Part shown: piece after piece, positions 10,836 through 61,444 of the stretch | Layout: each line of letters begins with the position of its first letter | Position numbering within the stretch: position 1 is the stretch's first letter | Assembly: GCA_017447625.1 (NCBI GenBank) | Contig: JAFSNB010000039.1 | Location: 1-64,000, forward strand | Source: Bacteroidaceae bacterium | GTDB taxonomy: Bacteria; Bacteroidota; Bacteroidia; Bacteroidales; Bacteroidaceae | Length of the DNA stretch: 64,000 bases | Direction of reading: 5' to 3' | Notes under the pieces: generated by a model | Databases searched by the model: none | What the model saw: only the letters and a program-made list of their open reading frames with translations | What the model was told of the DNA's origin: nothing | Made by a program: the position numbers and the translations under genes

Positions 10836-10858
10836 CGGCAAATTAATTCACAATTGTC

Positions 10859-36716: not shown

Positions 36717-36742
36717 CGTTTCGTAAATATCCAATTTGGCGG

Positions 36743-40833: not shown

Positions 40834-41410
40834 TCCCCCCTCTTGGTTTTTCTATATATCTGCACATACGTTCATCCGTAAAGCCCCCAGCAGTCAATAG
40901 GCAAATATAAAGAAACAGATATGGCAGGAGCCAAAATCCCATGAAGTATATCAATACTCAAAAAAGAAAAAAAATACTGTTTTGAGAAAGTTATCACAGA
41001 ACTTTAAATACAAATGATCTGCAAAACATATTACAGATACATTTGGCTTCTCGACACGTTGTTGAACAGTAGTCCTCTGACGATTGACGAGACCCGCAAG
41101 AATAATAAGTGAATGCCCGCGCCTCAAGCGCAGACACATACACTTATTCATATTCTTGCACGCGTTTTAAAACTCTCACATTTCTGGCGCGTAGAATAGA
41201 TGCATTGTGCTGTTATTATTTACCAAAAAGATTGATCGAGCACCTCCGCTGAGGTTGTCCACGGCTGCTTTATTGAGCCGATTTGTGCCCTTTCGGGGGG
41301 CAAAAGTACGAATAAGTGAAATAAATACAAAAGAAATGGCTGTTTTTATTTTCTTTTTCTGGCGAAAGTCCTCTCGTCCTTCAGTTATAGACACCATGAA
41401 TGGTTAAGTT
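40834..41410. other. Gene graveyard: WYL-regulator and RsmE-like 5' remnants
   Basis: On the plus strand 41014-41112 encodes YYRYIWLLDTLLNSSPLTID then ETRKNNK and stop, matching the start of Bacteroidales WYL-domain regulators (RYIWLLDTI...lT..E). It is cut after 32 codons. An inverted repeat (GCAAGAATA...TATTCTTGC, 41096-41160) overlaps the break. On the minus strand a TACTTTTG box (41301-41308) precedes ATG 41205 and only ten codons, MHLFYAPEM and stop. This resembles the start of the 16S rRNA methyltransferase RsmE. I see no complete gene here. Confidence 0.4.
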
Positions 41411-41415
41411 AGACT

Positions 41416-41447
41416 CCATGGAGACTGCGCAAACCCTCCATGGAGAC
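41416..41447. repeat. Direct repeat of a palindromic word
   Basis: CTCCATGGAGACT occurs twice (about 41414-41426 and 41437-41449). Its core CTCCATGGAG is self-complementary, and a degenerate third copy (TTCATGGACGA) follows at about 41460. Confidence 0.5.
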
Positions 41448-41494
41448 TAAACAAGCACTTCATGGACGAGCGAAGCAAGACAAAGAGAAAAAGA

Positions 41495-41638
41495 GTCAAC
41501 AAGTCAACGAGGCAACGAGGCAATGAGGCAACAAGTCAACGAGGCAACGAGTCAACGAGTCAACGAGACAACAAGTCAACGAGGCAATGAGGCGACAAGT
41601 CAACGAGGTGACCAGGTGACGGGTTAATGAGCCAAAGA
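41495..41638. repeat. Octamer tandem repeat array, about 18 units
   Basis: Units of eight bases run without interruption: GTCAACAA, GTCAACGA, GGCAACGA, GGCAATGA and so on. Copies stay close to G[TG]CAA[CT][GA]A up to about 41606, then decay (GGTGACCA, GGTGACGG, GTTAATGA). Eight is not a multiple of three and no gene uses it. Confidence 0.85.
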
Positions 41639-41644
41639 GGTGTA

Positions 41645-41945
41645 TTGGTGGGGTGGTTGTGGCCGTCTTAGGCGTAAGCCCCTCCTCTTAGGCCCCCCTA
41701 TATAGGGGGCCATAGAGGGGGGCTTGCCTCCTCCTCGTAAGGTTATTTGGGAGGGATGAAGAATGAAGGATGAAGTATGAAGGAAGAAGGAAGAAGGTTG
41801 AGGGATGAAGGTTCAGAGATGGGGGATGAAGGAAGATATGCACCCAACTCAAGCTATCGGCTTAACTTCTTGAACCTCTTGAACCTCTTAAACCTCTTAA
41901 ACCCCTTAAACTTCTTCAGACACTTCAATGAAGTTACTGTCAACT
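41645..41945. repeat. Mixed low-complexity repeats: GC hairpins, polypurine tract, CTCTTAAAC words
   Basis: 41690-41726 holds C-run/G-run hairpins (CCCCCC-tatata-GGGGGG). 41748-41840 is almost pure A/G with a gatgaagga period. 41871-41925 holds five 9-base units of the CTCTTGAAC/CTCTTAAAC type. A 170-codon open frame (41777-42289) crosses these repeats but has repeat-derived sequence and is not a gene. Confidence 0.65.
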
Positions 41946-41947
41946 CT

Positions 41948-42021
41948 CCATGGGGTTTCGGCAAGAAGTCCATAGGGTTTCGGCAAGAAGTCCATAGGGT
42001 TTTGGCAAGAAATCCATGGGG
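41948..42021. repeat. 22-bp tandem repeat, three copies and a partial fourth
   Basis: CCAT[GA]GGGTTT[CT]GGCAAGAA units begin at 41948, 41970 and 41992, with CCATGGGG again at 42014. The copies are nearly identical. Confidence 0.85.
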
Positions 42022-42120
42022 ATTTGCTATAAACCATTGGAGAGTGAAAGAAAAATGTATTTTATCGTACCGGAATGTACTGGAAGAGCAGGTAACGGTT
42101 TTTGCTGCGAATAATTGCTG

Positions 42121-42195
42121 TACATTTGCAGCGCAAAAACAAAATAACTATGATGCAAGCGAACATGCGATATTGAGAAATCCGGTACAGTACCG
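42121..42195 (+). promoter_or_regulatory. Second promoter-like box and a palindromic operator candidate
   Basis: TACATTTG at 42121-42128 matches TAnnTTTG and is followed only by an 8-codon frame. CGGTAC-A-GTACCG at 42183-42195 is a perfect palindrome, and a related half-site (TACCGGAATGTACTGG) occurs at 42067-42082. Confidence 0.35.
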
Positions 42196-42244
42196 ATTTG
42201 AGCCGCAAATATTGGTAATTAATAGACTTTCTACCGAATTTCAT

Positions 42245-42275
42245 CTTGCTTTTTTTGGGATTTTTTCTAATTTTG
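42245..42275 (+). promoter_or_regulatory. Promoter of the DUF4493/PCMD operon
   Basis: TTG at 42245-42247 (-33 region) and TAATTTTG at 42268-42275 (-7) have consensus-like spacing. The ATG at 42365 lies about 83 bases past the likely transcript start. Confidence 0.5.
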
Positions 42276-42364
42276 CGCCGTATTTTTGAGCAGATTGACA
42301 GTTGGTATTCTTATTTTGACAGATAGTATTCAGATTATTGTATTCATATTAATAATAACCACAA

Positions 42365-43213
42365 ATGAACATGACAATGAGAAAAAAAGTATTTTTCATG
42401 TGCCTTTCTTTAGGTTGCGCGGGACTACTCGCTTCTTGCAGCGCCGAAAACGATGCAGAGGGGACAGAGCTGGCCTCAAACCAGAAAGGTAAGGTTACGT
42501 TTGACCTTGCTTCGAGCGTGGAATTCACGACGGGCACGCGTGCCGTTGACGAGAGTTCGTACCAGAACTTCGACAACTACACGGTAAACATTCTGGACAA
42601 CAAGGGCGCCAGCAAATTCTCCGGAACGTTCGCAACGTTGCAGAGTCGTCTGCCGCTGGAGCTCGATCTGGGTTCCTATTCCGTCTCCGCTTCCTACGGA
42701 ACAGAGTACGACGCTTCGCGCGACGGATTTAAGGTGGAAGGCAGCAACACCTTTACCATTTCCGCTGCCAACACGGTAACGACGACTGTGAACTGTACGC
42801 CCACTGCGGGTAAGGTTCTGGTTGCTTTCGACGCTTCCATGAGCAAATACTACGACACCTACAGCGTAACGTTCTCTGGCACAGAAGCCTTAGGCACAAA
42901 AGTAGCCACCTGGGGTAAGGACGACACCCAGCCCTATTATCTGGCTCTGAACGAAGATGGCGAAAGGGTTACTTATACCATCTACCTCACCGCCAAGTCG
43001 GACTATGCCACCATGCAGAATGGCAACAAGGTCACCGAGGCAACAGCCACCGGTTCCTTCGTCCTGCAGCGCAACGCGGCTAAGCAGCTCACTATCAGAC
43101 CCAACTACACCCCGACAACTGATGGCGGTCTGGCTGTAACAGTTACCATCGACGACAGCACGAACGACAAGCCCATCGACATTGAGGTTCCTGTCAGTTG
43201 GATAAATAATTGA
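42365..43213 (+). CDS. DUF4493 lipoprotein, operon gene 1
   Basis: The 282-residue protein has a lipobox LLASC (Cys25); ATGs at 42371 and 42377 are alternative starts. The DUF4493 fold begins with a strand KGKVTFDLASSVEF, then the motif TGTRA with Arg59. The typical FDNYTVNILDNKG...LELDLGSYSVSASYG pattern follows. A second, related beta domain is at about 145-280 (TAGKVLVAFDASMSKYYDTY). DUF4493 proteins are surface lipoproteins of Bacteroidetes related in shape to fimbrillin-type Ig-like domains; no activity is established. It is first in a ten-gene co-directional operon, with the next gene after 36 bases. Confidence 0.85.
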   Translation: MNMTMRKKVFFMCLSLGCAGLLASCSAENDAEGTELASNQKGKVTFDLASSVEFTTGTRAVDESSYQNFDNYTVNILDNKGASKFSGTFATLQSRLPLELDLGSYSVSASYGTEYDASRDGFKVEGSNTFTISAANTVTTTVNCTPTAGKVLVAFDASMSKYYDTYSVTFSGTEALGTKVATWGKDDTQPYYLALNEDGERVTYTIYLTAKSDYATMQNGNKVTEATATGSFVLQRNAAKQLTIRPNYTPTTDGGLAVTVTIDDSTNDKPIDIEVPVSWINN

Positions 43214-43249
43214 TTTCAATAAACATCTTTAATAGAAAAAATCCACACA

Positions 43250-44533
43250 ATGAAACGATATAAGTTATTTCTTGGATGTGCAGCTGCGCTGGCTCTTGCC
43301 AGTTGCGTGAGCGAGGACATCTCAAAGCTTACGGACAAGGATGCCGGTCAACTTGAAGTGAGCGTAGAGACTCTGCAGCCGATGCAGACACGTGGCGCGA
43401 CCTATACCGTCACGAACTTCCCTGTGACCATTTATGAAGCCAACGGAACGACCAAGGTGGCCAGCTATGACGCTGTCACAGCAATGCCTGAAACCGTGCT
43501 GCTGCCTGTTGGTGACTATGTCCTTGAGGCACACACTCCGGGTGTCATGGAAAAGATTATGACAGCACCTTATTATAAAGGTACGGAAGTGTCAACCATA
43601 GTGAAGGATGTCACCACTCAGAGCACTATCACCTGTAAGCAGGCCAACACTTCCATAACCGTTCACTACGATCAGGACTTCATTGACCTGTTCACCTCTT
43701 GGACAATCACCTTCGACGACGGTAACAACAACGCCCTGAACTTCACCAACGAAGACGGCACGACCCCCTCGGCCCTTTATTGGGACCTTGGAGAAGGCGT
43801 TGAGCGTCTGATGGTTACGTTCCGCGGCGTCAATCGCGACGGTACCGTTACATCTAGCATGGTGCTGACGAAATCACAGGCCACGGAGACCTACGACGGC
43901 CAGAGCACGAACTTCGAAGGCGGCGATGGTGTAGTTGTGAACTTCACCCCGACGGAAGCCACCACCGGATACGTAACCGTCGGCATCACAGCTTCTATCT
44001 TCGGTCTGGATGCAGAGGAGGTTCCTGTAATCATGGAAGTGGTTGACAACGGACAGTTTACGCCCGATTCTGGCGACGACCCCGTAAATCCCGATCCTCA
44101 GCCCGACAACTCTATCGCACTGACCCTACCCGCTCCTATCACCTTCACGATGGGCAAAGGCGGCAGTTTGGACAAGGCCCTCGGCAACACTATCATCGAA
44201 GCCGAGAACGGAATCCGCAGCCTCATGGTCACAGCCCAATCGACCAATCCCGACATGGTAGCTTCGCTGGAAGCTGTAGGTGCAGGCTATGGTCTTGACT
44301 TTGTCAATGCCGGCGTAGAAGTGGTTGACAACAACGATCTTGTCAGCTTCTTCAGCGGTCTCGGACAGCAGCTGAGTGTTCCCGCCGAAGGCGACACCTC
44401 CTACCAATTCCCCATCGGTAACTTCTTCGTCCTGTTGGACGTTATGAGCGGCACTCACACCTTCAACTTGACCGTCACCGACATGAATGGCAAGACAAAG
44501 AGCGGCAGTGTGGTTATAACCGTAAACGAGTAA
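43250..44533 (+). CDS. DUF4493 lipoprotein, operon gene 2
   Basis: The 427-residue protein has a lipobox ALASC (Cys19). Its N-terminal DUF4493 unit begins GQLEVSVETLQPMQTRGATY, with the TRG motif at Arg48, and continues VLLPVGDYVLEAHTPG. A second beta domain follows at about 125-275 (ANTSITVHYDQDFIDLF). An acidic Pro/Asp linker (DSGDDPVNPDPQPDN) leads to a C-terminal module of about 140 residues (PITFTMGKGGSLDKALGNTI) whose final segment is Ig-like. That module is not present in the other operon proteins and may set a specific contact. The gap to gene 3 is 28 bases. Confidence 0.84.
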   Translation: MKRYKLFLGCAAALALASCVSEDISKLTDKDAGQLEVSVETLQPMQTRGATYTVTNFPVTIYEANGTTKVASYDAVTAMPETVLLPVGDYVLEAHTPGVMEKIMTAPYYKGTEVSTIVKDVTTQSTITCKQANTSITVHYDQDFIDLFTSWTITFDDGNNNALNFTNEDGTTPSALYWDLGEGVERLMVTFRGVNRDGTVTSSMVLTKSQATETYDGQSTNFEGGDGVVVNFTPTEATTGYVTVGITASIFGLDAEEVPVIMEVVDNGQFTPDSGDDPVNPDPQPDNSIALTLPAPITFTMGKGGSLDKALGNTIIEAENGIRSLMVTAQSTNPDMVASLEAVGAGYGLDFVNAGVEVVDNNDLVSFFSGLGQQLSVPAEGDTSYQFPIGNFFVLLDVMSGTHTFNLTVTDMNGKTKSGSVVITVNE

Positions 44534-44561
44534 AGCACAAACACATAAATGATATAATGAT

Positions 44562-46340
44562 ATGAAAAAGATATTTTCCATTATCGCCATCCTCTCCCTG
44601 ACGCTGGTCGCAGTTTCTTGCTCCAGTGAGGCGGATGATATGGCCAATGCAGAAGTGGGCTACCTCAAGCTCGGCGTTGAGACCAATGGCACCACGCTAT
44701 CCCGTGCCAGCGCTCCTAACGGCTACGACCCCACACAGCTCTACGTGGAAGTGAAGAACTCTTCCGACGAGGTGGTGTTCAGTACCGACGACATTGAAAA
44801 CGAGAGCCAGCTTGCCAACGGACAGTACCTGACAGTTGCACCCGGACAATACACCGTCATAGCTCACTCCAACAACTGGGACGGCGACGGTTCAGGCTTC
44901 AACACACCGTATTATTATGGTGAGACAACTGTAACCGTGAAAACGAAGACCGTGACTACCGCCAAGGTGACCTGCACGTTGGCTAACGTAAAAGTGACGG
45001 TGAACTTCTCTCAGGAGTTTCAGGAGAGTTTTGCCCGCGCCAACTCGACAATCGCATCTGCTATAGATGGCATAAGCTCCCAGACCTTCACCATGGGTTC
45101 CGACAAAGGCTCTGCCTACTTCCCCGTAGGCGACCTGACAGCAACGCTCTCTGTGTTCAACAAGGCCGGTCAGGGCTATAGCCACATGAAAGAGATTACT
45201 GGCGTGCAGGCTCGTGACCACTACATCATCAACTACACAGTGGCCGCCTCTGGCAACCAGGGCAAGGTGACGGTGCAGGTTGACCCGACTACCAACACCT
45301 ACACATATACGTTCGAGGTGCCTCGTAAGGGCGGAACCAGCCTGGCTGCTTATTCAGCCAACGCCTGGAGCTCATTCGCCTACCTCGAGGGCGGTATAAC
45401 CGCCAAGAAGGGCGATTTCGACCAGACTAAGCTTCAGCTCCAGTACAAGGCCGCTAACAGCGAGACCTGGAACAGCATCGACGCCAGCGAGCTCACCATC
45501 AGTGGCGACAACCTCAGCTATAAGCTGACGGGCCTGACACCGGAGACCGACTACACCTACCGCTTTGCATACATCACCGGCGACGAGGAGGTATTCAGCG
45601 CTGAAAGCTCGTTCACTACAGAGCCTCAGACCGCGCTCTACAACGGAGGTTTCGAGGATTGGTACAGTGCAGGCAACTACTATAGCCCGAATGCCGACGC
45701 CAACACCAAGTTCTGGGACACATCCAACCCAGGCTCTGCCAGCTTCAGCTATGTTGTCACTGAGCCTGAGACGGAATTTGTGCATGGAGGTTCGAAGTCT
45801 GTTAAACTGGCTTCAAAGTATGCTGTAATCAAACTGGCTGCCGGCAGTATCTACACAGGTACCTTCGGTAAGGTCAGCGGCACCAGCGCCACCATCAACT
45901 GGGGTGTTCCCTTCAACGGACGTCCTACAGCGCTCAAGTGCTATATCAGCTACGCTCCCGGAAGCGTCAACCGCGGTACTAAGCCTAGCATCGCTACAGC
46001 TCCCGACAACGGCGCGAACGACCATTGCGGCGTGCGTATTGCACTCATGACCAAGTCTGTCACGATCAACAATAGCAGCAGCGCCTGGTATTTCCCCGAC
46101 TGGGAGAATGATGACTTCGTCGTGGCTTATGGCTACTATGAGCAAAGCACAAGTGACAACGGCGAGTGGCGCGAACTGACTATTCCGCTCACGTACCACA
46201 GCCTGACGAAGAAGCCGACACACATAGTCATCACCGCTGCTTCAAGCGCATACGGTGACTATTTCTACGGCTCCGACGCATCGGTGCTCTATCTCGATGA
46301 CTGCGAATTGATTTATGGCGACACGCCAACAGTCAGATAA
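44562..46340 (+). CDS. DUF4493 plus PCMD lipoprotein, operon gene 3
   Basis: The 592-residue protein has a lipobox VAVSC (Cys20). Its DUF4493 unit has the motif SRA at Arg48 (LKLGVETNGTTLSRAS). A second beta domain spans about 140-250, and an Fn3-like module is at about 260-345 (LTGLTPETDYTYRFAYITGD). The C-terminal about 240 residues form a PCMD (putative carbohydrate metabolism domain): ALYNGGFEDWYSAG, FWDTSNPG, KSVKLASKYAVIKLAAGSIYTG, then ITAASSAYGDYFYG. PCMD folds like a carbohydrate-binding jelly roll, so glycan or surface binding is plausible. A strong GC hairpin separates it from gene 4. Confidence 0.87.
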   Translation: MKKIFSIIAILSLTLVAVSCSSEADDMANAEVGYLKLGVETNGTTLSRASAPNGYDPTQLYVEVKNSSDEVVFSTDDIENESQLANGQYLTVAPGQYTVIAHSNNWDGDGSGFNTPYYYGETTVTVKTKTVTTAKVTCTLANVKVTVNFSQEFQESFARANSTIASAIDGISSQTFTMGSDKGSAYFPVGDLTATLSVFNKAGQGYSHMKEITGVQARDHYIINYTVAASGNQGKVTVQVDPTTNTYTYTFEVPRKGGTSLAAYSANAWSSFAYLEGGITAKKGDFDQTKLQLQYKAANSETWNSIDASELTISGDNLSYKLTGLTPETDYTYRFAYITGDEEVFSAESSFTTEPQTALYNGGFEDWYSAGNYYSPNADANTKFWDTSNPGSASFSYVVTEPETEFVHGGSKSVKLASKYAVIKLAAGSIYTGTFGKVSGTSATINWGVPFNGRPTALKCYISYAPGSVNRGTKPSIATAPDNGANDHCGVRIALMTKSVTINNSSSAWYFPDWENDDFVVAYGYYEQSTSDNGEWRELTIPLTYHSLTKKPTHIVITAASSAYGDYFYGSDASVLYLDDCELIYGDTPTVR

Positions 46341-46366
46341 TTCACAAAAATCCAATCCCTGTATTA

Positions 46367-46399
46367 CCCAGCCCCTGCAACAACACGGCAGGGGCTGGG
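46367..46399 (+). terminator. Intra-operon 12-bp GC hairpin without a T-run
   Basis: CCCAGCCCCTGC (46367-46378) pairs perfectly with GCAGGGGCTGGG (46388-46399) around a 9-base loop. GTTTCGC follows instead of a T-run and the next ATG is 10 bases away. It is therefore more likely a partial terminator, transcript-end stabiliser or translation-control hairpin than a full stop. Confidence 0.6.
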
Positions 46400-46409
46400 G
46401 TTTCGCAAA

Positions 46410-47228
46410 ATGAAACACGACACAAACGTATTACTCCTGTCCGCGGTCTTGCTCCTCACGGCTGTGTCTTCTATGGCTCAGGTAAAGACCGACACAACCA
46501 ACCAACGTTCGCTCTACGACCGTTATCTGGATAGCCAGGAGAAGCGAGGAAGACATATCGAACGCGTGAATCGCGAGGACCTGAAAGCCACCTTTATCCC
46601 TAAGGGACAGTGGATGGCGGGATTGAGCTTCGCCTTCAACGAGTGGAACGCCAACAACCTTAACTACCTCGTTCTGAAGAACATCGACTTCGAGGGGCAT
46701 ACGTTTTCGGCAAGTCCTTATGTGGGTTATTTCTTCAAGAAGAACCTTGCCCTCGGCGGCCGTTTCAGCTACAGCCGCAACTATCTCTATTTAGGCAAGT
46801 TTGACCTTAACTTAGGCGAGGATTTCAACATCAGTCTTCAAGATCTCTATTACCTTGAACACCAGATTAACGCAGGACTCTTCCTGCGAACCTACCAGCC
46901 GCTTGGCAAAAGCAAAGTCTTCGGCTTCTTCAGCGAAGTGCAGCTGAACTACGCCTACGCCAAGGGCAAGAACTCCACGGGCTCCGGAGCCGACTACGAC
47001 GGCACAATGGAGCATGTGAACAAAATACAGTTGGCAGTTTGTCCCGGCCTCACCGCATTCGTCACAGACTTCATGGCAATAGAATGTTCCATAGGTGTGC
47101 TGAGTCTCAACTACAATTGGACAGACCAACAGACCAACCGTGTCGAAACGGGCAAGAACCGTTCAGGAGGCGCCAACTTCAAGCTCAATCTACTGAGCAT
47201 CAACATAGGAACGACATTTTATCTTTAA
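46410..47228 (+). CDS. Outer-membrane beta-barrel protein, operon gene 4
   Basis: The 272-residue protein has a signal peptide ending near SSMA (residue 22) and no lipobox. After a charged linker (QEKRGRHIERVNREDLKATF) come alternating amphipathic strands (WMAGLSFAFNEWNANNLNYL; ASPYVGYFFKKNLALGGRFSY; LSLNYNWTD). It ends NLLSINIGTTFYL with a C-terminal aromatic, as outer-membrane barrels do. About ten strands can be drawn, so it is a small barrel rather than a TonB receptor. It is the only barrel in the operon and could anchor or export the surface lipoproteins. Its TAA overlaps the next ATG (TAATG). Confidence 0.8.
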   Translation: MKHDTNVLLLSAVLLLTAVSSMAQVKTDTTNQRSLYDRYLDSQEKRGRHIERVNREDLKATFIPKGQWMAGLSFAFNEWNANNLNYLVLKNIDFEGHTFSASPYVGYFFKKNLALGGRFSYSRNYLYLGKFDLNLGEDFNISLQDLYYLEHQINAGLFLRTYQPLGKSKVFGFFSEVQLNYAYAKGKNSTGSGADYDGTMEHVNKIQLAVCPGLTAFVTDFMAIECSIGVLSLNYNWTDQQTNRVETGKNRSGGANFKLNLLSINIGTTFYL

Positions 47229-48949
47229 TGCGAAAATTGAATAATATAATAACGATTGTGATCAGGAGCTATAAATTGTTGATTTTGTGGCTGTGTCTGG
47301 CGTTTGCATCCTGTATTCCCGATGATATACCCTACCCCATTGTCGAGTCCGAGATCACGACGTTCGAGGTCTATGGACAATGCGACGAGACGGGCGAGGG
47401 CACGGCCTCTGCAACTATCGACAAAACAAATCGGGTCATTGAACTCTACGTTAATGACGAGGTAGATATCACACATGTCAGAGTCAAAAAGATTGAAGCC
47501 GTCAACGACCCGCACATCATCGTGAACGACACCATCCGTCTGCAATCGCCCACATATCCCACTGACTTACCCGTTGCGGACGCGACACCGATATACCTGG
47601 ACTTCAGCCAGTCGCAGACCATCACCCTGCACACTTATCAGGACTACCAGTGGACAGTCAAAGCCCATCAGGTAATAAAGCGTGAGGTTGAGGTAGAAGG
47701 TCAGGTCGGCAACGCCGTAATCGACCCCGAGACACGCGTGGTCATCGTCTATGTCAACGAGTCACAGCATCTGTCAGCCATCAAGGTGAATAAGTTCAGC
47801 CTTGGCGGTCAGCATGGCAGCGTAGATCCCGATCCCACCACACAGGAATCGGTGGATTTCACCACTGCCCGTCACTACAATGTCAGGTACGCTTGGTCAG
47901 AGGCCGTCTATCCGTGGGTCGTTTACGTCTATCAGACGGCAGGCACGGTGGAGCCCACTATGGAGGTGTCCCGCACCGCCAAGGGCGCCACGCTCATCTC
48001 CGGCACACGCCCCAACGGCGTCACCCCCGTGGTTGAATACAAAATCGCAGGCAGTGCCGACTGGACGGCAGCCACAGGGGTTCGCACCCCCACTTCCACA
48101 ACTTACGAAGTGGAATTGAATGCGCTGAAATCCGATGTCCAGTATGTCTGCCGGGCCACGTTCAATCAGACCACAACCGAGGAGCAGACCTTTTATTTCG
48201 AAGGCGAACAGCTCGAAAACGCCGGCTTCGAGGAGTGGCACGTCAAGGGCGAGGGAACGAAAGCGCTCTACTGCCCCTGGGCTGAGGGCGGTGAGCCCTA
48301 TTGGGACACAGGCAACCACGGCGCCACGACAGTCGGCTCGAGCAACAGCACCTATGTTGACGAGGGCGGTCGGCGCTACGCCAACTTGCAATCCAGATAC
48401 ATCGTCATCAAGTTTGCAGCTGGTAACATCTTCACGGGCAAGTACGTAGAGACCGACGGTTCAAACGGTGTTCTGGCCTTCGGACGTCCCTTCACGTCAC
48501 GCCCCGCACAGATGTCATTCGAATACCAGTACAAGACATCCACAATAACCCGCAACGGCGGCGATTGGAACAACGCCTGGGGACAATATATCTCGAGGGC
48601 AACGTACGAGAATCTGAAGGGGCAGCCCGATTCCTGCAGCGTGTTTATCGCGCTGGGCGACTGGGAACCCGAGACTTACAAGACCACCGTCTGTCCGTAT
48701 CTCATCCGAACACGTCCTACGGCCCTGCACCTGATAGACCTTCACGACCCGCATCTCATTGGCTATGCCCAACTGACACGCGGTGAGGATGTCAGCACTT
48801 GGACTACAGCAACGCTCGACATAGACTATCGCAGCGACCGCACACCGACAACAATAATAGTTGTCGCATCGTCATCGAAGTACGGTGATTACTTCACCGG
48901 CGGCGAAGAGTCGCTACTGAAAGTAGATAACTTTAAACTCATATATTAA
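47228..48949 (+). CDS. PCMD lipoprotein, operon gene 5
   Basis: The ATG at 47228 overlaps the previous stop by one base and starts a lipoprotein signal (LLILWLCLAFASC, Cys29), giving 573 residues. A longer frame from 47039 lies inside gene 4 and is rejected. There are two N-terminal Ig-like repeats (about 30-115 and 125-215), each with the INKTNRVIELYVNDEVDITH / IDPETRVVIVYVNESQHLSA pattern. A short Fn3-like part follows, then the PCMD (LENAGFEEWHVKGEG; YANLQSRYIVIKFAAGNIFTG; VVASSSKYGDYFTGGEESLL). It lacks the DUF4493 unit and the TR motif. It is paralogous to the C-terminus of gene 3, so the operon has two PCMD proteins. Confidence 0.86.
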   Translation: MRKLNNIITIVIRSYKLLILWLCLAFASCIPDDIPYPIVESEITTFEVYGQCDETGEGTASATIDKTNRVIELYVNDEVDITHVRVKKIEAVNDPHIIVNDTIRLQSPTYPTDLPVADATPIYLDFSQSQTITLHTYQDYQWTVKAHQVIKREVEVEGQVGNAVIDPETRVVIVYVNESQHLSAIKVNKFSLGGQHGSVDPDPTTQESVDFTTARHYNVRYAWSEAVYPWVVYVYQTAGTVEPTMEVSRTAKGATLISGTRPNGVTPVVEYKIAGSADWTAATGVRTPTSTTYEVELNALKSDVQYVCRATFNQTTTEEQTFYFEGEQLENAGFEEWHVKGEGTKALYCPWAEGGEPYWDTGNHGATTVGSSNSTYVDEGGRRYANLQSRYIVIKFAAGNIFTGKYVETDGSNGVLAFGRPFTSRPAQMSFEYQYKTSTITRNGGDWNNAWGQYISRATYENLKGQPDSCSVFIALGDWEPETYKTTVCPYLIRTRPTALHLIDLHDPHLIGYAQLTRGEDVSTWTTATLDIDYRSDRTPTTIIVVASSSKYGDYFTGGEESLLKVDNFKLIY

Positions 48950-48959
48950 TATAATAACG

Positions 48960-50795
48960 TTGAAGGCTTTTCATCACATTCTCACATTGGCAATCCTTGC
49001 TCTGCTGCCACTCCTAATCGGCGGCTGCAGCGCGGAGCTCCCCGTTGACGACCCCGTCACCGAGGGAGGCCTTGTGCTATCGATGCCGGGAATTGATGTT
49101 CAGGTCACTGAGACCCGCACCGCACCGGAGATGCTGGACAAGCCCTCAGCCGAGGACTTCCATCTACATATCCGGCGCATGAGCAACGATGTCTGCATTT
49201 ACGACGGCCCCTTCACCTCTGACAAGATAAAAGCCGCTCCGGACGACTATACCATCTCAGCCACTTACGGCGACAACCCCCTGCTCGGTCTGGACAGACC
49301 TTATTATATAGGCACAGCTACAGCCACCGTCGTCTCTACTACCGAGCCTACGCCCGTTGCCCTGCCTGTGTCTGTCGGCAATGCGCTGGTGAGCGTCACT
49401 TTCGGCACCGACGTCACCGAGGCCGCACGTTTCGACCGCTTCTACAGCGACTATGGACTGCAGGTGGCTGTGGGCAACAACCAAATCACATTGACATCCG
49501 ATCTTTCTGGCAAGAGTGTTTATGTTCGCGCAGGCAGTACCGTTGAGCTCTCGTTCACGGGCTGTCTCAATGCCGACGGTCGTGAGGTGTCGATGCCAAT
49601 CCTCTTGCCCGACGGAATCTCCAACAGGTTGTCTGCGGCAGACCATCTTATCCTCACCCTCTCCTTGGAGCCAAATGCCGAGAGTGCCGTAGTCACTGTA
49701 GTCAAGGCCGAAGTGGAGAAAGTGAACGTCGAGGAGAAAGTGCCCTACAACTGGCTCCCACGCCCCGTTGTGACCACAGAGCACCGGTTTGTCCACGGCG
49801 AACTGGTAGGCACGGACCTGAACATAGCGGCCTCGTTCCCCGACGTGCGGTGGGAGGCTACAATTCATCAAGGCACAGCATCAGGCAACATAGTACGCCG
49901 ACTGTCAGGCACAGGCGCCCTCACATCCACATATCAGCTCAATCCCGCCTGGCCATATCTGCCGCCTGGCACTTACGTAGCCACCTATCGCTACTATAGT
50001 CATCAGGGCAAGGCCTACAACTTCAGCAAGACCACCGAGTTCACCGTTCCGGCGCCGTCGCTGACGCTCACGGCCGATGCCTACACCGCCCACTCGAGAT
50101 ACGAGGAGGGTAATATCGCAGCAGCCAATGCCTGCGAACGCCTCACGGTATATGCGCCCTCGGCTTCGTTGAACGTAGCCGCCTCGCTCTTCGAGAACAC
50201 CAACTACAGCAAGAGCTATACCTACAGCGTCGGCTCGCAGTCCTTCACGGTAGAAGGAACAAGCAACAGCCAGACGTTCAGCGACATCACCGGAGTGCCT
50301 GTAAGCAGCTCGCTCTACGACTTCCGTGTCGTGGCCGACTTCTGCGGACAGACGGTGACAGCCACCAAACCCGTACGCATCACCGGTCTGCCCTACTCCC
50401 TCAATCTCGCATCTCACGCCGAGTGGAGCGCCAGCGGAAGCGTGGATTGGTTCGAAAACGATGTCCGTTTAGGTAAATTATCCACAGGCGGACAGGAGAT
50501 CACGAACAACAGCTCCGTCATTATCCCTCAAGGCACACGCTTCTGTGCCGACTATGATGTCAATGTCCACTCCGCCACCGCGGGAACGACATTCACCATC
50601 ACGGCTGGCACACAGGAGATTCTCTCCATTCGCGAGGATGGCGCAGCGTTCAACAACAGCGACAACCTGCACAACGGCACAACAAACACCTTCACTGCCA
50701 ACGGCGAAATCACGTCCCTCAAGTGCAGCAACAGCTACGGTGCGGGTCAGACCTGCACTCACATCTATGCCCTTACATTCAAATATGGTCAATAA
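48960..50795 (+). CDS. DUF4493 lipoprotein with TTG start, operon gene 6
   Basis: The frame starts with TTG at 48960, 10 bases after the previous stop; no ATG precedes the signal peptide. The 611-residue protein has a lipobox LIGGC (Cys23). The DUF4493 unit opens GGLVLSMPGIDVQVTETRTA, with the motif at Arg53, followed by APDDYTISATYGDNPLLGLD. A second beta domain follows (NALVSVTFGTDVTEAARFD). The C-terminal half has Ig-like segments (about 265-370, then 375-480) and ends in a domain with SGSVDWFENDVRLG. This is the longest DUF4493 member here. Confidence 0.82.
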   Translation: MKAFHHILTLAILALLPLLIGGCSAELPVDDPVTEGGLVLSMPGIDVQVTETRTAPEMLDKPSAEDFHLHIRRMSNDVCIYDGPFTSDKIKAAPDDYTISATYGDNPLLGLDRPYYIGTATATVVSTTEPTPVALPVSVGNALVSVTFGTDVTEAARFDRFYSDYGLQVAVGNNQITLTSDLSGKSVYVRAGSTVELSFTGCLNADGREVSMPILLPDGISNRLSAADHLILTLSLEPNAESAVVTVVKAEVEKVNVEEKVPYNWLPRPVVTTEHRFVHGELVGTDLNIAASFPDVRWEATIHQGTASGNIVRRLSGTGALTSTYQLNPAWPYLPPGTYVATYRYYSHQGKAYNFSKTTEFTVPAPSLTLTADAYTAHSRYEEGNIAAANACERLTVYAPSASLNVAASLFENTNYSKSYTYSVGSQSFTVEGTSNSQTFSDITGVPVSSSLYDFRVVADFCGQTVTATKPVRITGLPYSLNLASHAEWSASGSVDWFENDVRLGKLSTGGQEITNNSSVIIPQGTRFCADYDVNVHSATAGTTFTITAGTQEILSIREDGAAFNNSDNLHNGTTNTFTANGEITSLKCSNSYGAGQTCTHIYALTFKYGQ

Positions 50796-50812
50796 ATAAC
50801 TAAATCGGAAAT

Positions 50813-50846
50813 AAATTGTAAATCGTAAATCGTCAAATCGTAAATT
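50813..50846. repeat. Intergenic taaatcg repeat, matching a segment inside the GH3 gene
   Basis: The 34 bases align with 24155-24188 at 31 positions. Here the repeat lies between operon genes 6 and 7; there it is translated. Confidence 0.8.
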
Positions 50847-50852
50847 CTATTT

Positions 50853-51608
50853 ATGAAACGACTAATATATATCCCCCTCCTTCTGCTTTCCCTCGTCGCT
50901 TGCTCCGATGAGGCACCGCTCACCGTGAGTGAAGCAGAGGGTGAGCTCGTGATCAATGACATCAGCCGCGAGCAGCCGGGTCAGACCATAGTCCTGACGC
51001 GCGCAGCCGTTGACCCGGATCTGGCCGTTGAGATTCTTGCCTCCGATGGCAATGTCTATCGCGGTTACGAATATGCAGCTGGCGCCACCCTGCCCGACAG
51101 GTTCTCGCTTATCCCGGGCACATACACCCTGCACGCTTTCTCGGAGAATCAGACATCGTGGACCTCCGACAACGAGGGACGTGGCAGCGCCGTCTATGAA
51201 GCCTCGCAGGAGTTCACCGTGGAGACCGACTGGGTCACATATGTTAATCTCGCCGTGCCTATGAAGAACTACGGCGTCAGCTACACACTCCCCGAAGGCT
51301 TCGCAACCTGGTTTCCGGTGTGCACGTTCACCATTGCGGCCGACGGTCGCGCCAGCACGCTCACCACGGCCCAGACAGCTTACTACGACCCTGCCAACAT
51401 CGAAGGATTCACATTCTCGTTTCATCTCGTAAATTCCGACGGCGAGGTTTACGACATCGAGCCTCAGACCTACAAAAATCCCAAAGCGGGAATCGTATAT
51501 AACGTCAACCTCGCTTTCGCCAGCGACGACGATCCCACCAAACTGAAAATCGGCATCAGCTACGACGACACTTACGAGGAAATCGTTCACGAAATAACAC
51601 TGTATTAA
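50853..51608 (+). CDS. DUF4493 lipoprotein, operon gene 7
   Basis: The 251-residue protein has a lipobox LVAC (Cys17). It opens with a single DUF4493 unit (GELVINDISREQPGQTIVLT, then RAAVDPDL with Arg50), followed by FSLIPGTYTLHAFSENQTSW. A second beta domain is at about 128-250 (VTYVNLAVPMKNYGVSYTLP; NPKAGIVYNVNLAFASDD). The short form, with two beta domains only, is shared with operon genes 8 and 9, which suggests recent duplication within the operon. The next gene follows after 10 bases. Confidence 0.82.
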   Translation: MKRLIYIPLLLLSLVACSDEAPLTVSEAEGELVINDISREQPGQTIVLTRAAVDPDLAVEILASDGNVYRGYEYAAGATLPDRFSLIPGTYTLHAFSENQTSWTSDNEGRGSAVYEASQEFTVETDWVTYVNLAVPMKNYGVSYTLPEGFATWFPVCTFTIAADGRASTLTTAQTAYYDPANIEGFTFSFHLVNSDGEVYDIEPQTYKNPKAGIVYNVNLAFASDDDPTKLKIGISYDDTYEEIVHEITLY

Positions 51609-51618
51609 GTTAAAAGCC

Positions 51619-52377
51619 TTGAAACATTATCTGATTATACTACTCTGTATTCCGTTCTTCCTCACAGCCTGTCAGCAGGAAGACGTCTCCGCCTTGCAGT
51701 CGGGCAAGGGGCACATCTGTCTGCGTCTCTCAGCCGACTACGCAGTGCAGACACGTGCCTTGCAGGACATAGACGACCCCTCGACGTGGTTTGCCGTTGT
51801 CAGCGACGGGGCGTCAACGCTCTACGATCAGCAGATAGGCGACCGTCTGGAAGCTCTGGACTTCGAAGCCGGCACTTACGACATTGCAGTCCGGAGCCAC
51901 GATGACTTGTCTGCGGCTGTAGCTGCCGACAACGGCTGGGGCGCTGCTTACTTCGAGGGCTCTGCCGACGGTGTCGAGGTGTCTGCCGGCGGCACGGCCT
52001 ATGTCCACGTCGCCTGCGGACGTGCCCTGAATGCCAAGTTCCGCATTAGCTACTCTGAGTTCTCCGGCATAATCAATGCCCTTTCCATCACCGTACCCAA
52101 GACACTCACCTTTGCCTACGCTGACGGCACGCTCGCACGTGAAGCCTTCTTCGCGCCGAACGCCGCCATCACATATACCATCACCTACACCCTGGGCGGC
52201 ATAACGAAGACCACCGAGCCGCAGACACTCACGCTGGGAGGTGCGGCCACCGTCTCCACACTCGCCATCAAGTCCGACATCAACGGCGAGCTCAGCATCA
52301 GCCTCAGCTGCGACGATGAATTCCTGGACGATGCCGAATCGCTCATCACCATCAACGGCGCCACAGGCAAGGCATAA
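51619..52377 (+). CDS. DUF4493 lipoprotein with TTG start, operon gene 8
   Basis: It starts with TTG at 51619; the signal (KHYLIILLCIPFFLTACQQ) begins at this codon and no ATG is available. The 252-residue protein has lipobox Cys18. The DUF4493 strand GHICLRLSADYAVQTRALQD carries the TRA motif at Arg46, followed by DFEAGTYDIAVRSHDDLSAA. The second beta domain (CGRALNAKFRISYSEFSGII) fills the rest. It is the same size and layout as genes 7 and 9. Confidence 0.82.
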   Translation: MKHYLIILLCIPFFLTACQQEDVSALQSGKGHICLRLSADYAVQTRALQDIDDPSTWFAVVSDGASTLYDQQIGDRLEALDFEAGTYDIAVRSHDDLSAAVAADNGWGAAYFEGSADGVEVSAGGTAYVHVACGRALNAKFRISYSEFSGIINALSITVPKTLTFAYADGTLAREAFFAPNAAITYTITYTLGGITKTTEPQTLTLGGAATVSTLAIKSDINGELSISLSCDDEFLDDAESLITINGATGKA

Positions 52378-52389
52378 ACACTCATTCGG

Positions 52390-53142
52390 ATGAAAAAAAC
52401 TATTCTACATATAACCCTTCTGTTGAGCGTCCTGCTGTTCACCCTGACCGGTTGTCAGCAGGAGCGTGAGAACGAAGCCACACCGGCCGGTGAGGCAACC
52501 CTCGTGCTCAGCTTGGGCCAGACACAGCTGTTCACGGAACTGAGAACCAGAGCTGAACACGTGGTCACAGACTATTCCCGCTACACCTTCACCCTCAACG
52601 GCACGACAATCAGTGGAGCTCCAATCACGGACCTGGTTCTCCCTGTTGGCGACGACGGCATTGTCAAGGTGGCAGCCGGCTCCTACACCCTGTCGGCCGA
52701 CAACCGCGACTATGCCAATGCCGACAATGGCCATCCTTGGTACAGCGGCACATCAGAGTCGTTCTCCATAGATGTCAACCAGACGCTCAACGTAGCTATA
52801 GCCCTGGGCAAGCCAAAGAACGCCCGCATAACGGTTACTGTTGACGATTCGTTCACGTCGCTCTATGAAAATCCCGTCGTGACCCTGTCCGATGGCGAAC
52901 GCAGCGTCACTATGACCTCGTCCGAGGATGTCTGCCATTTCATTATCCCTGCCAGCGGCGCCTTAGCCTACACGATTACAGCGGCCGCAAAAGCAGGCAG
53001 TCACGCCACGGACATGGCATCCTCCACGGGCTTCGTCGAGATTCAGGCAGGCTACAACACCACCGTCCGTCTCAAAGCCAATCCCGCATCAGGAATCATT
53101 ATTCCCGTAGTCGAGGGAGGTCACTCCGGTTCATTTGATTAA
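52390..53142 (+). CDS. DUF4493 lipoprotein, operon gene 9
   Basis: The 250-residue protein has a lipobox LTGC (Cys22). The DUF4493 strand EATLVLSLGQTQLFTELRTR has Arg54 followed by AEHVV. The family core RYTFTLNGTTISG...VKVAAGSYTLSADNRDYANA and the downstream HPWYSGTSESFSI are clear, and the second beta domain begins KPKNARITVTVDDSFTSLYE. It ends in a Gly-rich tail (VVEGGHSGSFD). The gap to gene 10 is 9 bases. Confidence 0.84.
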   Translation: MKKTILHITLLLSVLLFTLTGCQQERENEATPAGEATLVLSLGQTQLFTELRTRAEHVVTDYSRYTFTLNGTTISGAPITDLVLPVGDDGIVKVAAGSYTLSADNRDYANADNGHPWYSGTSESFSIDVNQTLNVAIALGKPKNARITVTVDDSFTSLYENPVVTLSDGERSVTMTSSEDVCHFIIPASGALAYTITAAAKAGSHATDMASSTGFVEIQAGYNTTVRLKANPASGIIIPVVEGGHSGSFD

Positions 53143-53151
53143 GAACAACTC

Positions 53152-54903
53152 ATGAAGAAGAAATCATTCGATATCATTCTGCTAACGCTGCTTGCGCTAT
53201 GCTTTAGCACTCAGGCAAAGGCTTGGGGAGAGACCACCAGCTATGTGTTGCAAAACTCTGGCGGCACACTTAGCACCATCGCTACGGGACCGTCGTTGCC
53301 GCTTACTGGCCCGGGCGCGACCTTGACTTATGATGTTTATACGAATACGTTTCTCGGAATTCCGGGTTTAGGAGGCATCTACGTGCAGGTATCCACGGAT
53401 GGAGGCAGCAACTGGAGCGATTTGGCTCACGATGATGTCTCGAAAAACAAAACGACCAAGACCCACACCATTGGTTCAGATGTCACTCACATCCGCTTTA
53501 TCACCAAGACCGGTGCTACGCTGAATAAGTACTATAGCAACATCAAGGTCACCCGTGCCACCACCCTCTCAACTTCTACCACTACGCTGGACTTCGGCAC
53601 AGTCACCAACCGCCGCAGCTCTACGCTCAACGCCTCTGTGGATTACAACAACACGACCTACAACCAACAGGTGACAGGCACCTGCACCGACCCGAACTTC
53701 ACCGTCACCGCAACCACGGTCGGTGCCACAGGCAGCGGTCAGGCCATCCCCGTTGTCTTCACCCCCACCTCAGCCGGCACACATACAGGCACCGTCACGC
53801 TTACGATGAATGGCAAGACCGTCTCCTTCAACGTCACGGGTGTCGGCCAGACAACCTATTACACTCGGGCCACGGCCTCCGCCACCACTGGCGGTCAGGC
53901 GTTTGTCAGCTTCACCTCGTTCGAGGCAGCCACGAATTCCAGCGACACCAAGAACAGCGGTGTCACCACAGCGTCCAGCGCCTCCACCGTGGCATACTTC
54001 CGGGCTGTTCCCCAGCAGCGTTATACCTTCGTCGGTTGGAAAGAGAGCCTCAGCGATGCCGCTTTCGTCAGCACCGATGCCGACTTCCTCGCACCGGCTT
54101 ACACCTACACCTCTGAGAGCTCGTCAGCTCCAACTGTAAAGACCTATTATGCCGTCTTCGAGGAGAAGCCCAATGTAATTACCCTCGAACCGTCCGATGC
54201 CGCCTACGATGCCGACATTTACGAGCGGGTCACACTCCACCGCACATTCCTTCAGGGCTACCACAGCCTCTCGCTGCCTTTTGCAACAGACGTGCAGACG
54301 CTGACGGGGCGCGTAAGCGACGACGACTGGGTTGCACAACTCTCCTCCGTGACCTACAACGCCCACGACGGCTACACCCTTTTCTTCGAGAAAGTGACTA
54401 ACGGTTACATCGGCGCTTTTCAGCCATATATCCTTCATCTCGGGCAACCGCTCACCGACCCTTCGTGGACAAACGTTGAAGTACTCGAGCCCCAGCCCGT
54501 CACCATCACCCCCACTGAAGGTTACGATGGTTTTCTCGATTGGCAGATGACCTCCAACTTCACTGCCGCGAAGGACATGAACGGGCTCTACGGCATCGTC
54601 AACGCCGCCGGAGCCTTGAAACTGGGCACCGCTGGCTCAACGCTCAATGCCTTCACCGCATTTATCACTCCCCCCGCCGGTTCAGCTGGCGTCAAGGCCC
54701 GCTCTGCATTCATCGACAACGGCAACGTCACAATTGTCGATGCCCTCCCCTTCGACAGCCCATCAACAGCCATTCACACCTTCGACAGACCATCAACCAC
54801 CATTCACACCCTCGACGGCACTCTCCGCCATAGCGTTTCACATCCTGGCATCTACATCATAGGAAACAGAAAAGTGGCGGTAAACCGACATCAATCACAC
54901 TAA
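53152..54903 (+). CDS. Surface protein with Hydin/ASPM-like domain and sorting-type tail, operon gene 10
   Basis: The 583-residue protein has a cleavable signal (LLTLLALCFSTQAKA) and no lipobox, unlike most of its operon partners. An N-terminal beta domain (about 25-135) precedes a choice-of-anchor D / ASPM-SPD2-Hydin-type Ig module at about 138-230 (TTTLDFGTVTNRRSSTLNAS; GTHTGTVTLTMNGKTVSFNV). Residues about 235-345 resemble an InlB B-repeat-like segment (AVPQQRYTFVGWKES; TYYAVFEEKP). A further beta domain leads to a C-terminus reading HPGIYIIGNRKVAV, similar to type IX secretion tails. A 30-base tandem duplication (54751-54780 and 54781-54810) sits just before the tail. It may be the tip or adhesin component of the operon's product. 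Confidence 0.75.
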   Translation: MKKKSFDIILLTLLALCFSTQAKAWGETTSYVLQNSGGTLSTIATGPSLPLTGPGATLTYDVYTNTFLGIPGLGGIYVQVSTDGGSNWSDLAHDDVSKNKTTKTHTIGSDVTHIRFITKTGATLNKYYSNIKVTRATTLSTSTTTLDFGTVTNRRSSTLNASVDYNNTTYNQQVTGTCTDPNFTVTATTVGATGSGQAIPVVFTPTSAGTHTGTVTLTMNGKTVSFNVTGVGQTTYYTRATASATTGGQAFVSFTSFEAATNSSDTKNSGVTTASSASTVAYFRAVPQQRYTFVGWKESLSDAAFVSTDADFLAPAYTYTSESSSAPTVKTYYAVFEEKPNVITLEPSDAAYDADIYERVTLHRTFLQGYHSLSLPFATDVQTLTGRVSDDDWVAQLSSVTYNAHDGYTLFFEKVTNGYIGAFQPYILHLGQPLTDPSWTNVEVLEPQPVTITPTEGYDGFLDWQMTSNFTAAKDMNGLYGIVNAAGALKLGTAGSTLNAFTAFITPPAGSAGVKARSAFIDNGNVTIVDALPFDSPSTAIHTFDRPSTTIHTLDGTLRHSVSHPGIYIIGNRKVAVNRHQSH

Positions 54904-54907
54904 GGAT

Positions 54908-55372
54908 TTACAATATTATTTCCATGCCGGTTTTCTGCACATGCATACCCATTCTTTTGTAGAAAGACATGGCGGAATCGTTACCCTCCCAGACGTTGAG
55001 GGTAATGTTGTTACAGCCGATTGAGATGGCATAGGCGCGGACGTGCTCGTAGAGGGCTTTGCCGATGTGTCGGCCGCGGACGTTCTCATCTACGCAGATG
55101 TCGTCGATGTACAGGGTTTTTATGTCCTGCAAGAGGCGGTGGTTGCGCACCTCTGTGACTTGGCAGAATGCGTGTCCGAGGATGTTGCCGCCATCGTCAA
55201 AGACGAAGATGGGTGTGTTGTCTTCGTCGATGATGGCTGCGAGCTGCTGCGCGTCGTATTTGGGGGTGTTCCCCCGGAACAGGTCGGGGCGGATGGCGTG
55301 ATGCACCGCATCTACCTGATATAAAAGGGCTATTATCCCCGGGATGTCGTGTTTATTTGCTTTTCTTATCAT
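54908..55372 (-). CDS. GNAT family N-acetyltransferase
   Basis: The 154-residue cytosolic protein has the acetyl-CoA-binding core. DIKTLYIDDICVDENVRGRH is motif A, with the V-x-x-x-x-R-G-R-x-I-G-K pyrophosphate loop (VRGRHIGKALYEHV). GCNNITLNVWEGNDSAMSFYKRMGM is motif B. The substrate cannot be inferred. It is convergent with the DUF4493 operon, with only 4 bases between the two stop codons. Confidence 0.9.
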   Translation of the reverse strand: MIRKANKHDIPGIIALLYQVDAVHHAIRPDLFRGNTPKYDAQQLAAIIDEDNTPIFVFDDGGNILGHAFCQVTEVRNHRLLQDIKTLYIDDICVDENVRGRHIGKALYEHVRAYAISIGCNNITLNVWEGNDSAMSFYKRMGMHVQKTGMEIIL

Positions 55373-60456: not shown

Positions 60457-60561
60457 CGAAAAGAAATGAATAAATGGCAAGATGAGCCGATAAAAAGCAT
60501 AAAAATCTTCATTTCTTCACAAAAATGCAGCTCAAATGAGCGTTAAATGACAAATAATAGC

Positions 60562-60569
60562 TACCTTTG
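60562..60569 (+). promoter_or_regulatory. Promoter -7 box for the first deoxynucleoside kinase
   Basis: TACCTTTG, 19 bases before the ATG at 60589. It lies inside the longer open frame starting at 60547, which argues for the shorter start. Confidence 0.6.
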
Positions 60570-60588
60570 TGGCCACATTAATAAATAT

Positions 60589-61206
60589 ATGTACATAGCA
60601 ATTGCAGGAAACATAGGAAGCGGAAAGACTACACTCACGAAAATGCTGGCTAAACAGTTTGGCTGGAAGCCGCATTTCGAGCCTGTGGCCGATAATCCGT
60701 ATCTGGAGGACTACTATAAGGACATCCCCCGATGGAGCTTCGCATTGGAGGTGTTCTTCCTCAAGCAGAGGTTCCGCGACATGCTCGCTATCGCAAAGTC
60801 TGAGGAGACAATAATCCAGGACCGCTCCATCTTCGAGGGCGTTTATGTGTTCACGGCCAACAACAAAGACATGGGGAACCTGTCAGACCGTGATTTCCAG
60901 ACATATATGGAACTCTTCGAACTGATGACGCGCGTGGCAAGCCTGCCAGACCTGATGATTTATCTGCGCGCTTCGGTGCCACATCTCGTGCAGAACATCC
61001 AGAAACGCGGACGCGACTACGAGCAGACGATGCCTTTGGACTACCTGCGCAACCTAAACAGCCGATACGAGGACTTCATCTTCAACAAATACCGGGGGCG
61101 GGTGCTCACGATAGACGTGGATTCGCTCGACTTCCAGAACCGCGTCGAGGACTTCGCCATGATCTGTGACAAGGTCGAAGCAGAACTCTTCGGACTGTTC
61201 AAATAA
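60589..61206 (+). CDS. Deoxynucleoside kinase 1
   Basis: The 205-residue P-loop kinase is of the dNK family. GNIGSGKTTLTKML (about 7-20) binds ATP. FEPVADNPYLEDYYKD carries the substrate Glu. The DRS motif (IIQDRSIFEG) is present, and RGRDYEQTMPLDYLRNLNSR forms the lid. It phosphorylates deoxynucleosides for salvage, and the specific base cannot be read. The start at 60589 is chosen because the open frame upstream crosses a promoter. A paralogue lies 238 bases downstream, as in the paired dAK/dGK genes known from lactobacilli. Confidence 0.92.
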   Translation: MYIAIAGNIGSGKTTLTKMLAKQFGWKPHFEPVADNPYLEDYYKDIPRWSFALEVFFLKQRFRDMLAIAKSEETIIQDRSIFEGVYVFTANNKDMGNLSDRDFQTYMELFELMTRVASLPDLMIYLRASVPHLVQNIQKRGRDYEQTMPLDYLRNLNSRYEDFIFNKYRGRVLTIDVDSLDFQNRVEDFAMICDKVEAELFGLFK

Positions 61207-61444
61207 ACAACAAATATTATTAAACCACGAATTAAACGAATTAAACGAATAATTATTTCTCTAACAACGGATTACACGGATTTAGATCAATGCATAATTC
61301 ACAATGCATAATGCATAATTGGGCTGCGCGAAGCTCTTAAACCTCTTAAACTATTAAACTTCTTAAACTCATAATAAATATCACTTGTCCTCATTTCGCT
61401 CCCTCCCTATAAGGGAGGGCGGGGGGAGAGTCCTAATCAAAGCC
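61207..61444. repeat. Modular intergenic repeat block between the kinase genes
   Basis: In order: accacgaattaaacgaattaaacg, aacggattacacggattt, attcacaatgcataatgcataattgggctgcgcga, ttaaacctcttaaactattaaac, and a hairpin TCCCTCCCT-ata-AGGGAGGG. The word gcataattgggctgcgcga nearly repeats 59774-59793. Confidence 0.7.

Follow-up and report, generated by a model that had tools for sequence, protein, structure and literature searches.

What does a bacterium make with an operon whose products are largely lipoproteins of DUF4493 and PCMD, two families for which no role has been shown? The question is raised by ten adjoining genes, here g1 to g10, in a 64,000-nucleotide stretch of DNA from a Bacteroidaceae bacterium (the window; positions 1 to 64,000 of contig JAFSNB010000039.1, assembly GCA_017447625.1). 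A first-pass annotation of the window had proposed a surface-polymer or adhesin system of pilins and accessory subunits. Our data suggest that the DUF4493 proteins work like the type V pilins of Bacteroidales, and that the operon most likely makes a surface fibre with g3 at its tip. A multi-subunit surface structure is also what we infer, now with a mechanism attached; for the surface-polymer (polysaccharide) half of the earlier idea we found no support.

The genes all lie on the + strand between 42365 and 54903, with intergenic gaps of 36, 28, 69, -1, 10, 57, 10, 12 and 9 bases, so that eight of nine are under 60, in line with the compact, co-directional run described before. The negative value stems from the ATG of g5 at 47228, which overlaps the g4 stop and was taken as the start in place of an over-extended open reading frame (ORF) listed from 47039. 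Pfam assigns DUF4493 (PF14900) above the curated cut-off to seven of the ten proteins (g1, g2, g3, g6, g7, g8 and g9), all of them with a lipobox when read by eye, and PCMD (PF13201) to two, namely to the C-terminus of g3 (2.4e-36) and to g5 (3.9e-39). The inventory of seven DUF4493 lipoproteins, one of them also with PCMD, plus one PCMD lipoprotein is thereby confirmed; g4 and g10 have no Pfam match above cut-off. Beside the lipid cysteine, about 2 in seven residues are acidic in the DUF4493 and g5 proteins, against 0.92 in other lipoproteins. Acidic residues next to the lipid cysteine are typical of surface-export signals in Bacteroidota.

The sole DUF4493 protein that we folded, g1, is predicted by AlphaFold (AF2) to consist of two beta-sandwich (transthyretin-like) domains. 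When this model was compared with the PDB (Foldseek, E<=0.001), 23 of the 25 chains matched were FimA/Mfa-superfamily proteins, and Mfa2, Mfa1, Mfa3, FimA and Bacteroides "cell adhesion" structures ranked ahead of other folds (Foldseek/VIA), with modest template modelling (TM) scores. For g1, the fimbrillin-like fold anticipated for the DUF4493 proteins thus emerges from the model, which speaks strongly for a relationship between the DUF4493 fold and the FimA/Mfa superfamily; we regard this relationship as very probable. What weighs against it is the sequence. After trimming of signal peptides, no sequence-level homology to known pilins was detected (hhalign 6-43%, in a comparison from which g8 was left out). 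The much higher untrimmed figure for Mfa2 homology (80-96%) was accordingly rejected; of the 29 loci L143-L171, 15 passed a length and overlap filter and made up the Mfa2 set. A Pfam scan of the ten proteins yielded no fimbrillin match (FimA, Mfa1, Mfa2 or Mfa-like), and the g1 profile, searched against the PDB by sequence, recovered no fimbrial chain, its best row being titin, which we judged spurious. Membership in the superfamily is supported by the modelled fold together with a candidate processing site, without support from sequence.

Type V pilins are cleaved at an Arg (or Lys) of the loop that follows strand 1; this strand then departs, and the emptied groove takes a strand of another subunit, according to the available parts of the reports on Mfa4 (PMC4789730) and Mfa1-3 (PMC5789003). 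In g1, the strand modelled at 41-50 leads into a loop of low confidence that contains Thr58-Arg59-Ala60. Position 59 is basic in all 51 aligned g1 proteins (Arg in 41, Lys in 10) and position 60 is Ala in 49 of them, next to gapped or variable positions 55-57. Three listed g1 ORFs outside the alignment likewise have Arg at 59, and they share the tail Trp discussed below. The broad pattern [TSLV]R[AGSTVD] occurs within 75 residues of the cysteine in 80 of 85 lipobox-bearing DUF4493-like proteins from loci of the genus and of three other families (4 proteins without lipobox were left out). For the stricter TR[AST] at +15 to +60, counted over 78 loci collected through g3, the proportions are 29/50 for g1, 43/60 for g2, 46/62 for g6, 31/43 for g7, 45/58 for g8 and 15/17 for g9, with 49 DUF4493-class ORFs without detectable lipobox left out. 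They are 36/105 for the g3-labelled class, in which DUF4493 proteins are pooled with PCMD-only ones, 9/52 for the g5 class, and 3/62 for other lipoproteins, one of these three looking like a DUF4493 relative. A loose [RK][ASTG] carries little information, since 39 of 62 other lipoproteins have it. Cleavage of the DUF4493 proteins at the loop Arg/Lys thus seems probable.

The other end of g1 is equally suggestive. Its C-terminal tail has a predicted local distance difference test (pLDDT) score of 44-55 in the monomer model, and is conserved at Trp279 (51/51), Pro276 (50/51) and Ile273 (49/51); such a conserved but low-confidence tail might be a donor strand. The tails of g7-g9 differ from that of g1, and these proteins may for this reason be accessory subunits.

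Together, these observations suggest a model for a type-V-pilus-like surface adhesin, which we consider somewhat better than an even bet, as we do the existence of a DUF4493 polymer. The mechanism that we infer begins with export of the DUF4493 proteins, which share a fold of the FimA/Mfa type, to the surface as lipoproteins. There an Arg/Lys protease, presumably clostripain-like, would cut each of them after the first strand at (T/S)-R/K-A; the source genome has two clostripain-family matches. Loss of the first strand would open a groove, to be filled by the C-terminal tail of the subunit that follows, and the stalk would be built by the subunit with the free conserved tail, g1. As the tip, g3 would present its pilin domain, followed by fn3 and the PCMD jelly roll, to a glycan; that this PCMD part forms the tip of the fibre is a claim about which we are evenly divided. 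The fibre would be anchored or nucleated by an outer-membrane complex of two partners, the barrel (g4) and the PCMD lipoprotein (g5), although to cast these two as anchor or as platform for assembly is a guess, and g6-g10 would be lineage-specific accessory subunits.

Is the arrangement more than chance? An alignment of g3 was used to scan 84,980 species genomes, and the best 80 matches were kept, giving 78 loci; genes in these loci, chosen as they were through g3, were labelled with our own profiles and thresholds. The order DUF4493, DUF4493, DUF4493-PCMD, barrel, (second barrel,) PCMD, on the + strand, is present in 67 of the 78. Five more loci (L065, L090, L100, L107 and L121) have only the last three core genes in order, and six lack the core order (L073, L087, L108, L112, L113 and L117). 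L073, L087, L108 and L112 begin or end at a contig end; L117, which does not, has barrel and PCMD only. With the order of five genes preserved in 67 of 78 loci, the ten-gene arrangement is more than a chance assembly.

Within the genus, DUF4493 was found (E<=0.001) in 11 of 37 genomes, including our own, most of these assemblies being 60-90% complete. Regions were fetched from the ten DUF4493-bearing relatives and from three other families. All eight long genus loci (L031-L038) have the order g1-g2-g3-g4-g5-g6-g7; L039 is a fragment from g4 onward, and in G022 the genes are split over two contigs (L040 and L044). Further DUF4493 genes follow g7 in most genus loci, with g8- and g9-like genes in L032, L034, L035, L036, L038 and L039, and a g10 homologue closes the run in L032, L034 and L036. 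Flanking genes vary between relatives, but the core is constant.

In a separate test on 295 genomes drawn evenly across Bacteroidales, 37 carry DUF4493, 27 match the barrel at E<1e-50 (a threshold picked after the list was seen), and 26 have both (Fisher p 1.7e-27); at the looser E<=0.001, the barrel is found in 47 genomes, 28 of them with DUF4493. Of the 26 genomes with both, 24 have them on a single contig, no more than about 3 kb apart, and the other two, G165 and G206, on separate contigs; G193 has a barrel without DUF4493. The genes are thus linked, and the routine scatter that the first-pass annotation had named as grounds for refutation was not seen. From this synteny across loci and order sample, the cassette is a five-gene core with a variable tail. 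Assemblies that contain it bear the labels Prevotellaceae, Bacteroides, Phocaeicola, Parabacteroides, Mediterranea and Proteiniphilum, and cultured strains are among them, such as Phocaeicola barnesiae DSM 18169 (L085) and Mediterranea massiliensis (L102).

Several variations on the cassette were seen. Two adjoining barrel genes are present in many genomes of other families, and in L045 the DUF4493 operon is closely preceded by two PCMD genes. DUF4493 without a strong g4 match occurs in 11 of the 37 DUF4493-bearing genomes of the order sample (G043, G078, G124, G147, G158, G178, G210, G238, G256, G281 and G302), in 8 of them as a single copy; DUF4493 therefore also exists outside the cassette. 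In relatives, one tail gene (L034:6915-8777 (-), L035:12858-14741 (+), L037:10641-12584 (+)) has DUF4493 replaced by a different N-terminal domain, joined to the C-terminal part known from g6. We take this N-terminal domain to resemble fimbrillin; Pfam gave no fimbrillin match for the three proteins, and a search of the PDB by sequence gave no match for the one from L034.

The features of the locus are collected in the table. A regular-expression scan of the + strand from 40801 to 55000 for a promoter motif, which we take to be of the Bacteroidetes -33/-7 type, matched only at two overlapping pairs before g1. An invertible promoter upstream of g1 was considered and rejected: the inverted repeats are imperfect or far apart, and no convincing switch was seen. 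The C-terminal part of g2 is Ig/PKD-like (Big_9 and K319L-like PKD matches, below cut-off), the fn3 match of g3 falls just below the Pfam cut-off, and the C-terminal part of g6, some 350 residues, is without family match. For g10, two earlier claims did not hold up. Its adhesin-like domain is represented by sub-threshold ASH/HYDIN-type Ig matches alone (E 0.0019 and weaker), and its sorting-type tail, a resemblance to T9SS tails by eye only, was not reported by TIGR04183, a profile that at loose E also matched 13 of 14 control genomes, so that its weak rows carry little meaning.

Table. Features of the ten-gene locus, in coordinates of the window.
Feature	Position	Strand	Basis
Promoter-like element TTG-N19-TAATTTTG, 89 bases before g1	42246..42275	+	regular-expression scan
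g1, DUF4493 lipoprotein, 282 aa; proposed shaft subunit	42365..43213	+	Pfam, AF2, Foldseek/VIA, column counts
g2, DUF4493 lipoprotein, 427 aa; proposed adaptor or shaft	43250..44533	+	Pfam DUF4493 5.5e-41
g3, DUF4493 + fn3-like + PCMD lipoprotein, 592 aa; proposed tip	44562..46340	+	Pfam
g4, small outer-membrane beta-barrel, 272 aa, between two PCMD genes	46410..47228	+	AF2, fold matches, synteny
g5, PCMD lipoprotein, 573 aa	47228..48949	+	Pfam
g6, DUF4493 lipoprotein, 611 aa, TTG start	48960..50795	+	Pfam
g7, DUF4493 lipoprotein, 251 aa	50853..51608	+	Pfam 1.5e-19
g8, DUF4493 lipoprotein, 252 aa, TTG start	51619..52377	+	Pfam 6.3e-13
g9, DUF4493 lipoprotein, 250 aa	52390..53142	+	Pfam 1.7e-15
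g10, secreted protein, 583 aa	53152..54903	+	sub-threshold Pfam; homologues in some related loci

The small beta-barrel that had been annotated as g4 is modelled (AF2) as a small outer-membrane barrel of 10 strand segments, with OprF, OmpA and OmpW as closest folds. By sequence, g4 found nothing credible in the PDB, and among 58 relatives 3 weakly match OMP_b-brl and 3 OMP_b-brl_2. In g5, the N-terminal 330 residues belong to no Pfam family and found no PDB match at 0.01. The PCMD part of g3 matches the solved chains 4jrl, 4het and 3hbz (E 5e-7 to 1e-4). The last of these, BT2081, is a jelly roll with a deep pocket which its authors proposed, and did not show, to bind carbohydrate, partly on the grounds of genome context, as stated in the available parts of their report (PMC2954218).

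Could the same proteins be displayed without forming a fibre? The DUF4493 lipoproteins might be pilin-folded but singly lipid-anchored, each presenting a binding domain of its own, and barrel and PCMD lipoprotein would form a separate surface complex. Such a non-polymerising array of adhesins would fit with the modest TM-scores of g1, the large C-terminal parts on g2, g3 and g6, the different tails of the DUF4493 classes, the genomes with DUF4493 that have no strong g4 match (11/37), and the fact that no anchor pilin was identified. It leaves the invariably basic loop position (51/51, despite varying loop length) and the conserved yet unfolded g1 tail hard to explain, as both make sense with cleavage and strand exchange, and we hold it to be rather unlikely. 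We likewise see little likelihood, and if anything a shade less, in a reading that keeps the DUF4493 polymer but makes it a distinct class of pilus, nucleated and held by a dedicated outer-membrane barrel with its PCMD lipoprotein (g4-g5) and not by a lipid-anchored Mfa2/FimB-type pilin; the PCMD tip of g3 would then make up, together with the g4-g5 complex, a platform for assembly of which type V pili offer no known example.

The proposed pocket of BT2081, in the parts of PMC2954218 available, and a GH127 gene that starts about 620 bases past g10 on the opposite strand are what one might expect of a glycan-capture complex for polysaccharide utilisation, with PCMD and DUF4493 lipoproteins binding surface glycans and the barrel serving as uptake partner. 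However, Pfam (E<=1) found no SusC/SusD, glycosidase, usher or chaperone family among the ten proteins, in agreement with the earlier statement that the operon has no SusC/SusD pair or enzyme; the flanking genes vary among relatives while the core does not; the barrel is OmpA/OmpW-sized, unlike a TonB-dependent importer; and the fold matches of g1 are pilins. Glycan capture of this kind therefore appears improbable. Many paralogous lipoproteins in a single operon and a small barrel of OmpA/OprF type would also suit a scaffold or coat of the cell envelope in place of an adhesive fibre, yet the patchy presence of DUF4493 (11/37 in the genus, 37/295 in the order, with many assemblies incomplete) is better suited to an accessory adhesin, and we give this last alternative hardly any credence. 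A fibre of the type V kind is the reading that we retain.

The source assembly has 2.56 Mb in 46 contigs and is 73% complete. The operon is flanked upstream by genes for an AlbA/RecG-like protein and a GHMP kinase, and downstream, on the opposite strand, by genes for a GNAT acetyltransferase, GH127 and a Band 7 protein. In a profile search of the assembly, all six reported DUF4493 matches lie inside the ten-gene cluster, g8 being detected by protein scan only. GldM of the type IX secretion system is present. A separate fimbrillin cluster (L137, G000:C19:1-9000, about 866-3708) has three Mfa_like_1 matches over cut-off, one weak Mfa2 match and, in the two of its proteins that were read, LTRA and TTRS motifs close to the N-terminus. 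Further PCMD matches are on contigs C25 and C43. On the latter, a second PCMD arrangement without DUF4493 (L138, G000:C43:60000-79900, 7657-13404) comprises a 530-aa PCMD lipoprotein, a 264-aa outer-membrane-looking protein and a 1106-aa protein that matches PCMD below threshold and whose tail is sorting-signal-like by eye only; kinship of its barrel with g4 was rejected (hhalign 0.7%). Elsewhere in the window lie an adjoining pair of M6 (immune inhibitor A-type) peptidases, one with an fn3 domain (32282-34750 and 34929-36734, - strand), and two successive ORFs with the common P-loop start IAIAGNIGSGKTTLTK (60547-62065, + strand), apparently a tandem duplication of what is presumably a nucleoside-kinase-like gene.

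Our literature search found nothing under DUF4493 or "PCMD domain", nor for a combined type V query; for PF14900, PF13201, DUF4493 domain and PCMD, the matches listed contained only other meanings of PCMD. If the model is correct, these two widespread families would gain one common, testable function, in sugar-binding fibres of Bacteroidales, and if the barrel takes part in assembly, current ideas on the anchoring of type V pili would need revision.

How, then, does the locus compare with known systems? It differs from a Sus-type polysaccharide utilisation locus in having no SusC/SusD pair among the ten proteins (Pfam), and from a chaperone-usher pilus in having no usher or PapD-type chaperone match, its sole barrel being a protein of 272 residues. 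The OmpA barrel has 8 strands. From OmpA, OprF and OmpW, g4 is set apart by its 10 modelled segments and by the lack of a Pfam match. With the PCMD family (BT2081/3hbz, 4jrl, 4het), the operon shares the C-terminal domains of g3 and g5, which are PCMD above cut-off; BT2081 carries one Ig-like N-terminal domain, according to the available parts of PMC2954218, whereas PCMD is fused here to DUF4493 plus fn3-like (g3) or to the 330-residue part (g5). Compared with type V pili (the Porphyromonas gingivalis fimbriae FimA and Mfa1, Bacteroides pilins), the subunits are of another sequence family, DUF4493, without Pfam fimbrillin match, and a PCMD jelly roll is the presumed binding domain. The operon adds a companion barrel and a second PCMD lipoprotein, which have no counterpart in the parts of the type V literature examined, and it has no recognised uncleaved DUF4493 anchor pilin; g3 fits the tip, and g5 might be the anchor. 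What the two have in common are lipoprotein precursors as products, a pilin-type fold (in the g1 model), a basic residue in the loop that follows strand 1, a multi-gene locus with one subunit (g3) that bears a C-terminal ligand-type domain, and a clostripain-family protease in the genome. The operon thus looks like a relative of type V pilus loci, whose products would build a fibre on the cell surface that binds sugar at one end.

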